Shown: positions 21,113 to 34,336 of the stretch, piece by piece
Layout of the letters: every line of letters begins with the position of its first letter
Numbering within the stretch: the first letter of the stretch is position 1
Assembly (NCBI GenBank): GCA_947467345.1
Contig: CANIHD010000006.1
Coordinates: 1 to 64,000 of the forward strand
Direction of reading: 5' to 3'
Source: Alphaproteobacteria bacterium
Lineage (GTDB): Bacteria > Pseudomonadota > Alphaproteobacteria > Micropepsales > Micropepsaceae
Length of the DNA: 64,000 nucleotides
Notes under the pieces: generated by a model
The model's database searches: none
Seen by the model: the letters and a program-made list of their open reading frames with translations, nothing else
Told to the model about the DNA's origin: nothing
Made by a program: the position numbers and the translations under genes

Positions 21113-23233
<2,121 letters not shown>

Positions 23234-23239
23234 ACCCGC

Positions 23240-23641
23240 TTGAGCGAGGTCTCATGCGATGGCTGCAGTGCGTGCTGCCGCCATCATGTCGTTTTGCTGA
23301 CCGAGCAGGACGAACCGAATTTCCACGCTTACAATTACCGTCATGTCGGCGATTTGCGCGTCCTGAACAACAAGCCCAATGGCGAATGTGCCCATCTCGC
23401 AGACAATTTCTGCACGATCTACAAAAAACGTCCGCAGGTCTGCCGAACCTATGATTGCCGGAAGCACTGGAAGATATTACCCGAAAGCGAACAGCATCGA
23501 TTCCGCAAAAGCGATATGGGCCGAGCGGCCTTTGCGAGTCTGAGCACGCTCGATGCCGACGATATCGCCGACCTGCCCGCGTACCGACAGCGGGCGACGC
23601 CCGCTATCGATGCAAAAACCGGCCTACCGAAAGCTAAATAA
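23240..23641 (+). CDS. YkgJ-family cysteine-cluster protein
   Basis: This 133-aa protein has the YkgJ zinc/iron chelation pattern: CDGCSACCRHHVVL at residues 6-19, then CAHLADNFCTIYKKRPQVCRTYDCRK. Eight clustered cysteines could bind a metal or an Fe-S cluster. The start is a TTG 6 bp after the hemB stop; the first cysteines are so close to it that a later start would remove them. Probably cotranscribed with hemB. Its exact role is unknown. Confidence 0.82.
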   Translation: MSEVSCDGCSACCRHHVVLLTEQDEPNFHAYNYRHVGDLRVLNNKPNGECAHLADNFCTIYKKRPQVCRTYDCRKHWKILPESEQHRFRKSDMGRAAFASLSTLDADDIADLPAYRQRATPAIDAKTGLPKAK

Positions 23642-31055: not shown

Positions 31056-31721
31056 ATGAGCGCACGCAAACCCTTCCCCGTAAGCATGCGGCAGGCCTTC
31101 ATCGCCGGCGTCCTAACCATCATCCCGGTCATCGTGGTCTGGCTGGTGATGGATTTCGTGTTCTCCTTTCTGTTTACGGTCGGCTCGCCGCTCGGGCAGG
31201 CTTTGGTGGGCGTCGTCGCCGAGTACGCGCCGGAAATGGCGCCGCTTCTCACCTCGACGGTGTTCGAATGGTTTATTGCCGTGGTTCTCGCCATGCTTCT
31301 GATTTGCGGCATCGGTCTGGCGGCCAGCCGTGTGATCGGCATGCGTCTGATTGGACTTGGCGAAGTCGTCATAGCGCGCATTCCGTTCGTCCAGACGATC
31401 TATTCCGCCTCGAAAAAACTTGTCGGCGCCCTGAAGCAGCAGCCGGGCTCGGGCGCGCGCGCCGTACTGGTCGAATTTCCCGCACCGGGCATGAAAGCCA
31501 TCGGCTTTGTGATGCGCGTCTTCACCGATTCCGGCACGGGGGAAGAGACCGCGATGGTCTATGTGCCCACCGCTTTCAATCCTACCGCCGGCTTCCTGCA
31601 ATTCGTGCCGGTGGCAAAGATTACAACCACCGATCTCAGCACCGATCAGGCCATGGCGCTTGTGGTGTCGGGCGGCGCCATCTCGCCTGAAACGCTGACG
31701 ACGAAGCCGCCGGTGCCGTGA
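31056..31721 (+). CDS. DUF502 membrane protein
   Basis: This 221-aa protein has two N-terminal transmembrane helices (QAFIAGVLTIIPVIVVWLVMDFVFSF and FEWFIAVVLAMLLICGIGLAA). The conserved DUF502 cytosolic domain follows: GEVVIARIPFVQTIYSASKKL, then VLVEFPAPGMKAIGFVM and MVYVPTAFNPTAGFLQFVP. Family function is unknown. The stop codon overlaps the GTG of the next gene (GTGA), so the two were probably cotranslated. Confidence 0.88.
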   Translation: MSARKPFPVSMRQAFIAGVLTIIPVIVVWLVMDFVFSFLFTVGSPLGQALVGVVAEYAPEMAPLLTSTVFEWFIAVVLAMLLICGIGLAASRVIGMRLIGLGEVVIARIPFVQTIYSASKKLVGALKQQPGSGARAVLVEFPAPGMKAIGFVMRVFTDSGTGEETAMVYVPTAFNPTAGFLQFVPVAKITTTDLSTDQAMALVVSGGAISPETLTTKPPVP

Positions 31722-34178
31722 GCAACGCAGCCGTCCTTCAGACCGACGGCAAGCACTCTCATACTCTGATGGTTTTGCTGTTGCTGTTCGCGGGCACCGG
31801 CTGCTCGGCGCTGATTTATGAAATCGTCTGGTATCAGACGTTGGAACTTGCCATCGGGTCCAGCGCCGTGTCACTCGGCGTGCTTCTCGCGACGTTTATG
31901 GGCGGCCTCTGTCTCGGCAGTCTCTTACTGCCGAAAATTCTGCCGTTGCTGCCGCGACATTGGCAACACCCGTTGCGCACCTATGCGGCGATTGAAATCC
32001 TGATTGGCATTCTTGGCATCATAGAGCTGGCGGCCATACCGCTGATTGGTGGTGCCTATGTAGCGGGCGCGCAAAGCGGGCTACCGAGCGTTCTCTTGCG
32101 CAGTCTTGTCACTATCGTGACGTTATTACCGCCGACCATGCTGATGGGCGCATCCCTGCCCGCCATCGTGCGCCTGTTCGACGCCGACAAAAACGGCGCT
32201 GCGCGTTGGGGATTGTTCTATGGCGGCAATACAGCGGGCGCTGTGTTCGGCTGTCTGTTTGCCGCCTTTGTGTTGCTGCGCAATTTCGATGTCACCACCG
32301 CCACCTTCGTTGCGGCTTCCATCAATTTCGCTGCTGCTATAATTGCATTGACCCTCGCGCCACGCGTGTTGTTCACAACCGTTATGAATGCGCGTGCAGA
32401 CGCTTTGACGCACGAAGGCACCGGACCGGCCTGGACGGTCTATCTCGTCATCGGAATTTCAGGCGCCTGCGCACTCGGCGCTGAAGTGGTGTGGACTCGT
32501 TTGATGGGCCTGATGCTGGGCGGCACGGTCTACGCCTTCGCCATCATCCTGGCCGCCTTCCTTGTGGGGCTGGTGATCGGCACCGCCGCTGCGACACAAC
32601 TGGTCGGACGCGTGAACGCGCGTGTGGCGCTCGGCATCTGCCAATTTCTTGCCGCTTTCGCCATCGCCTGGTCGGCCTATATGATTGCCGAAGCTTTACC
32701 CTATTGGCCAATCAACCCGACTTTATCACGAAGCGCGGGCGTAACGTTCCAGCTCGATTTCGTGCGCACCTTCATCGCCATTTTCCGCCGGCTTTGTTTT
32801 GGGGCGCGAGTTTTCCTTTTGCCTTCGCTGCGGCTTCTACTGCGCATCTCGATCCCGGCCGCATTGTCGGGCGTATCTATGCCAGCAATACACTTGGCGC
32901 CATCGCGGGCGCGCTCGGCGCATCGCTGATCCTCATCCCCACCATCGGCACACAACAGACGCAGCGTCTGATGCTGTTTCTCCCGGTTCTATCTGCGCTT
33001 CTGATGCTTGCCCCCTACATACGCAAAACAAAATCCGCCGATGCCTTTGCCTATGCGCTTGCGGCATGATCACGAGCGGTCTCTTGATCTGGGGCGTTGC
33101 AAAAGTGCCCGGCGAATTGATCGGCTATGGGCGGCGCATGGCCATGAATCTCGGCCAATCGGAAATGCTCTACACCGCCGAAGGGCGCAACACGTCGATC
33201 GCGGTTTCGCGCTGGCATGACGGCTCCATTCAATTCCATGTCGCAGGAAAGGTGGAAGCGTCGACCATTGGTTACGATATGAGGCTGCAGCGCATGTTGG
33301 GCAATCTCGGCGGGTTAATTCACGAGAACCCGCGCAGCGTTCTGGTGGTGGGCTTCGGCGCCGGTGTGACCGCAGGTTCCTTCGTGCCCTACCGCGGCGT
33401 GCAACGCATTCTGATCTGCGAATTGGAGCCCTTGATTCCGCCGACATCGACGCGATTTTTCGAAGCGCAGAATTACGACGTGATGAATGATTCTCGCACC
33501 GCGATTGTCTACGACGATGCGCGCCATTTCATTCTAACAACGCGCGAAAAATTCGACGTCATAACCTCAGACCCCATCCATCCCTTCGTGAAGGGCAGCG
33601 CGACGCTCTATTCCAAAGAATATTTCGAGATGCTGAAAGCCCATCTCAATCCGGGCGGTGTCGTCACGCAGTGGATTCCGCTTTACGAAAGCGACGCTGC
33701 CACAGTGAAGAGCGAGATCGCGACGTTCTTCGCGGTGTTTCCGCATTCCACCATGTGGGCCAACACGGTTGCCGGAAAGGGCTATGATCTGGTGCTGGTA
33801 GGGCATCTCACCACGCCGCGCATAGACATCGACGCCGTGCAGGCGCGCCTCGACCGCGAGGACTACGCGCTGGTCAAAGCGTCGCTGGGAGATGTCGGCA
33901 TTGCGCGCGCCGTGGATGTCTTCGGCACCTATCTCGGCGACGCGGAAGATCTGAAGCCCTGGCTGGCCGACGCCGAGATCAATTACGACCGCGACCTGAA
34001 GCTGCAATATCTCGCCGGCCTCGCCCTTAACAATAATCTGGAAGACGTAATTTACCGCGCCATTATGAGGCACCGCCGCCCGCCGGGCGCGCTCTTCGTG
34101 GGTTCCGAAGGCCCCATGAATGTCCTGAATGAGAACATATTGCGTGCCTATCTCAACGCCAGCGATCTGGACGAATAG
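31718..34178 (+). pseudogene. Fused membrane transporter-like/spermidine synthase-like protein, split by two frameshifts
   Basis: The protein should be about 820 aa: a polytopic N-terminal part (GCSALIYEIVWYQTLELAIGSS..., multiple TM helices) and a C-terminal spermidine synthase-type methyltransferase domain (SVLVVGFGAGVTAGSF, LICELEPLIPP, YDDARHFI, DPIHP). Translation starts at GTG 31718 and then changes frame at about 32780-32785: ATTTTCC appears to lack one T, and PPALFWGASFPFAF continues one frame lower. A second change occurs at 33066-33069, where an ATG overlaps the stop codon (ATGA) inside a predicted TM helix. Frames are shifted by -1 each time. It may be a pseudogene, a sequencing artefact, or (second site) a coupled split gene with an intact 370-aa synthase part at 33066-34178. 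Confidence 0.75.
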
Positions 34179-34260: not shown

Positions 34261-34336
34261 GCCGGCTTAGCTCAGTTGGTAGAGCACGTGATTTGTAATC
34301 ACGGGGTCGCGGGTTCGATCCCTGCAGCCGGCACCA
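34261..34336 (+). tRNA. tRNA-Thr (anticodon TGT)
   Basis: The 76-nt cloverleaf has acceptor arms GCCGGCT/AGCCGGC, a D-arm TAGCTCAGTTGGTAGAGCA, an anticodon arm CGTGA-TTTGTAA-TCACG giving anticodon TGT, a T-arm GCGGGTTCGATCCCTGC and an encoded ACCA end. It reads threonine codons ACA (and ACG). Confidence 0.96.

Follow-up and report, generated by a model that had tools for sequence, protein, structure and literature searches.

Layout of the fused gene

The window analyzed here comprises the first 64,000 nucleotides of a 136,447-base contig (C6), which belongs to a Micropepsaceae genome of 2.49 Mb in 25 contigs that is 96% complete. Positions 31718 to 34178 encode one fused protein, an MFS-like membrane domain followed by an aminopropyltransferase-fold domain, spread across three frames, as established from the translations and from an alignment with homologues. 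The path leads from the frame of GTG 31718 into the frame that ends with TGA 33067-33069, and then into the frame that ends at 34178. In the translations, both moves are in the -1 direction, in agreement with the initial annotation, which had proposed from the letters alone that two such changes split a single protein. The three resulting pieces, hereafter A, B, and C, are listed with their surroundings in Table 1. All of them resemble a single homologous protein much more closely than chance would allow: in a tblastn search with the protein of locus L033, pieces A, B, and C were hit with E values of 2.89e-105, 5.23e-20, and 2.32e-162, respectively. Besides the two shifts, no extra stops were found in the translations of the three pieces.

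Table 1. Features of the fused gene and its immediate surroundings (positions in the window)
Feature	Position	Strand	Description and basis
Upstream ORF	31056-31721		stop overlapped by GTG 31718; ORF list
Piece A	31718-32784	+	N-terminus plus the bulk of the MFS-like membrane domain; ORF list and homologue alignment
Piece A ORF, continuation	32785-32929	+	out of register after 32784, open to the stop at 32927-32929
T4 run at join 1	32781-32784	+	one base short relative to the family
Piece B	32785-33069	+	end of the membrane domain, stop TGA 33067-33069; translation and homologue alignment
ATGA overlap at join 2	33066-33069	+	lost base at the ATGA or somewhat before it
Piece C	33066-34178	+	end of the last helix and aminopropyltransferase-fold domain (PF01564); Pfam 72.3 bits, cut-off 22.9
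Nucleotide-binding motif VVGFGAGVTAG	33345-33377	+	Ala at the Asp/Glu place of spermidine synthase; 1uir alignment
D-x-x-D-P loop VITSDPIHPFVKGSATLYS	33558-33614	+	second Asp replaced by His; 1uir alignment
tRNA-Thr	34261-34336		3' of the fused gene

The two joins were characterized in an alignment of the three pieces with 27 homologues. At the A/B join, one residue is left and only two bases are available to encode it, and the B/C join (AYALAA followed by MITSGLLIW) is gap-free; each join therefore represents a shortfall of one base. The T-run previously remarked upon at the first shift is the T4 run of join 1. At join 2, the ATGA merely marks where frame B meets its stop, and the second lost base has no exact position. 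The joins are about 285 bp apart, and the search for repeats around them returned nothing telling. When mapped by eye from the alignment onto a structural model of the L033 protein, join 1 falls near residue 358 (helix 341-375) and join 2 near residue 452 (helix 442-461), bearing out the earlier observation that the ATGA interrupts a predicted transmembrane helix.

The fused family and its distribution

The two domains of the window gene occur in the same order in NCBIfam family NF037959, "fused MFS/spermidine synthase" (MFS_SpdSyn), where a membrane domain precedes a spermidine-synthase-like domain in a single frame rather than in three. Against a family cut-off of 40 bits, piece B scores 45.5, piece C 40.9, and piece A 15.5 bits, so that only the first two exceed it; the intact L033 protein reaches 88.4 bits. 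All 23 aligned homologues match the profile at an E value of 0.001. The window gene is an ordinary member of this known fused family in broken form, whether the break is biological or technical. The literature searched contained no description of the bacterial fusion, which may still be in print.

The model of L033, a homologue and not the window copy itself, was built from a 23-sequence alignment and has a mean pLDDT of 81.4 and a pTM of 0.81. Its membrane part superimposes on SLC37A4 (9w1r) with a Z score of 29.3 and an rmsd of 3.4 over 368 aligned residues at 11% identity, and its C-terminal part matches the aminopropyltransferase 1uir with a Foldseek E value of 8.9e-12. On this predicted structure of the homologue, the membrane part adopts an MFS fold. 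By sequence, Pfam MFS_1 was detected in 1 of the 23 homologues.

Scanning genome contigs with piece C recovered 32 loci, mostly from assemblies named after Acidobacteria groups, together with one from Micropepsaceae and one from Opitutus. A full ORF of 803-988 aa was present at 24 of them, three were open and ended by a contig edge (L040, L057, and L062), and five were broken (L034, L054, L059, L060, and L063). The breaks of L034, L060, and L063 are at runs of N, whereas L059 and L054 have no N there and carry local deletions. The runs of N, some of which span only two bases, disrupt the frame of the gene in these three public assemblies and would look like frameshifts in an annotation.

For the comparison with full-length fused homologues that had been proposed as a check on the break, we scored a locus as unbroken when two motifs flanking the pair of window joins were both found in one ORF. 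This was the case for 33 of 34 distinct loci, namely 31 of the 32 scanned loci plus those of genomes G002 and G018; L004, which is the L033 contig read from the opposite strand, was left uncounted. The exception, L054, is broken between the two join sites, at about residues 409-429 of L033, the window joins being at about 358 and 452.

Close orthologues (E < 1e-100) were present in 4 of 61 genomes (G000, G002, G006, and G018), and the fused gene is patchy even within its genus. So few close orthologues suggest that the gene is dispensable. In a FastTree tree, the window copy lies beside those of G002 and G006 with a support of 0.998. Across the wider set, the gene occurs mainly in Acidobacteria assemblies and in few genomes of Micropepsaceae; either transfer between phyla or mis-binning of contigs could account for this scatter. 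A conserved neighborhood was rejected after comparing the contig with the ORFs of G002 and G018 (19.9 kb of each), a 9.5-kb contig of G006, and six named loci of the 32; at an E value of 1e-15, only the fused gene matched, except for an L061 ORF at 106489-107088. No blastn match was found among plasmid records.

Origin of the two frame changes

The full protein would be produced if ribosomes passed one or both joins by programmed -1 frameshifting. Both changes are indeed in the -1 direction, and a Phe tRNA bound to UUC within ATTTTCC could conceivably re-pair with UUU. However, the signal for programmed -1 frameshifting is an in-frame X_XXY_YYZ slippery heptamer, and none is present in frame A (31718-32929) or in frame B (32491-33069). 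The 71 nucleotides that follow each join, folded as pseudoknot-free structures, do no better than shuffled sequences (z scores of 0.37 and 1.51), providing no sign of a stimulating RNA structure, and the feature is not conserved, since the relatives read across both joins in one frame. The frameshifting that a reporter assay had been suggested to detect is thus very improbable. Apart from the caution it offers against calling frameshifting from one genome, the break itself matters little.

A second explanation takes join 1 as an error and join 2 as a genuine split, in which a membrane half and an enzyme half would be translationally coupled at the ATGA. Frame C opens with ATG 33066 precisely where frame B terminates, join 2 is located in the helix that follows the 12-helix MFS-like core in the L033 model, and a two-gene layout is possible in this genome, where a membrane ORF and a spermidine-synthase-like ORF lie close together on contig C7 as separate ORFs. 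Against such a split, the relatives are unbroken at join 2, a membrane helix would be cut, and piece B can be reached only through join 1. The overlap itself also carries little weight. Among the 1,114 +1-frame stops in 82 long ORFs of the contig, 191 form ATGA and 582 overlap an ATG, GTG, or TTG in the same manner; when weighted by possible loss sites, ATGA comes next after 12% of one-base losses and any start/stop overlap after 49%. An ATGA is thus expected about once in eight one-base losses by chance, and we rejected it as a sign of a designed split. The coupled split that had been raised as an option for the second join is accordingly weak, and we consider it improbable.

The remaining explanations both start from an intact gene. 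In the one that we favor, with a probability of roughly 0.58, two single-base losses at separate sites have turned a once-intact fused gene into a young pseudogene. A single gene for the fused MFS-like/aminopropyltransferase-fold membrane protein would have been disrupted twice; ribosomes starting at GTG 31718 would be out of the family frame beyond 32784 and terminate at 32927-32929, cutting the membrane domain short, and synthesis of the enzyme domain would require a start inside frame C. We infer that the losses are present in the organism's own DNA, not introduced by assembly, and that the gene is nonfunctional.

In the other explanation, the organism carries an intact gene and the consensus lacks two of its bases, one of them in the T-run. 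T-runs are a usual place for base-calling errors and join 1 lies at such a homopolymer, all pieces look constrained with stops arising only from the two shifts, and 5 of the 32 public loci are also broken, three of them at runs of N, indicating that local assembly trouble does occur in this gene. However, a T4 run is short, and the window contains 101 T4, 38 T5, and 13 T6 runs, on a contig where the search turned up no further break. It would also be a coincidence for two independent errors to fall within 285 bp unless coverage was poor there. An assembly or sequencing error is less likely in our view than real inactivation.

The search for other breaks relied on a hidden Markov model with a four-base context, applied to the 136-kb contig and restricted to same-strand changes in which the upstream frame stays open for more than 34 bases beyond the change. 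Two such frame changes were returned, join 1 of the fused gene and contig position 119355. The latter was rejected as a second frameshift, being a scan artefact at a pair of genes that, from their translation, we take to be nuoJ/nuoK-like. As join 2 was itself taken as an ordinary junction and about half of -1 losses would be missed, the scan has limited sensitivity; within it, no other break of the same kind was found in the contig. Genome-wide, none of the 39 PF00005 and 14 PF00106 matches contained internal stops, these domains spanning only part of each gene. With the contig scan clean at its limited sensitivity and these matches uninterrupted, genome-wide indel noise was discarded as the cause; such noise is not obvious, even though the fused gene carries two breaks. 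Two breaks in one patchy gene on an otherwise clean contig favor real inactivation over random assembly error.

The evolutionary record of the window copy bears on the age of such an inactivation. The third codon position changes most in pieces A, B, and C, as expected under coding constraint, and dN/dS against the G002 orthologue is about 0.23, 0.37, and 0.27 for the three pieces, with dS saturated. Because coding constraint is visible in all pieces, the inactivation, if real, must be recent. The window copy departs from the family in 6 of 141 invariant columns, including, in the enzyme domain, a His-to-Asn change and the loss of two Pro residues; the other members show 0 to 17 departures in leave-one-out counts, so that the 6 of the window are not unusual. 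Its faster rate depends on the outgroup (105 versus 48 with L033, 82 versus 76 with L041), and a similar bias is seen in two control genes with G006 (45 versus 31 and 57 versus 39). Neither the invariant-column departures nor the branch length of the window copy clearly stand apart.

The spermidine synthase label

The conserved fused family, whose active-site residues speak against its assigned function, is a more useful by-product of this analysis than the frame break, and it can be assayed directly. With the speE profile TIGR00417, the fused gene scores 68.5 bits, far below the cut-off of 249.55. It shares with SpeE (TIGR00417; PF01564) the PF01564 domain and, in the L033 model, an aminopropyltransferase-like C-terminal part, and differs from it at two active-site positions. 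The second Asp of the D-x-x-D-P loop, which we take to be catalytic, is a His in the window copy and in 23 of 27 homologues, and an Asp in the other four (L049, L053, L056, and G018). The acid of the GxG(D/E)G motif is missing from the family: the window copy reads GFGAG, and the aligned homologues have Ala (25/27) or Gly (2/27) at that place. In PMC10349129, this acid is described as required to bind decarboxylated SAM. Since it is replaced by Ala or Gly in all 27 homologues and in the window, the label "spermidine synthase" appears doubtful for the whole fused subfamily. Of the initial description as a fused transporter-like/spermidine-synthase-like protein, the family match thus stands, while "spermidine synthase" is an annotation that finds no support in the active-site motif.

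A fungal protein offers a parallel. NHMT, as presented in PMC10349129, is a membrane histidine methyltransferase annotated as a spermidine synthase; set beside the fused family by description, it likewise combines a membrane domain with a spermidine-synthase-like domain that lacks the GxG(D/E)G acid. The membrane domain of NHMT has 7 TM segments and the protein is reported there as confined to filamentous fungi, whereas the membrane part of the bacterial family is MFS-like. By analogy with what is argued for NHMT in that source, the fused family may use SAM itself. We tentatively suggest, as a possibility rather than the probable outcome, that members of the subfamily are not spermidine synthases but SAM-dependent transferases borne in the membrane, perhaps methyltransferases, and carry the wrong name in Micropepsaceae and Acidobacteria; the MFS-like half would then deliver substrate to the enzyme half.

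The genome also carries separate proteins of this fold. A 297-aa protein (L083, G000:C20:39974-40513) has GGGDL and RPDP motifs and scores 158.4 bits with PF01564, compared with 74.9 bits for the fused gene; judging by these sequence features, it is the strongest candidate in this genome for a genuine spermidine synthase. Finally, L085 (G000:C7, about 23109-23495) encodes a 330-aa spermidine-synthase-like protein with the motif GQGGG, accompanied by a 264-aa membrane ORF in the same 3.4-kb locus, an arrangement that resembles the fused layout divided over two genes.
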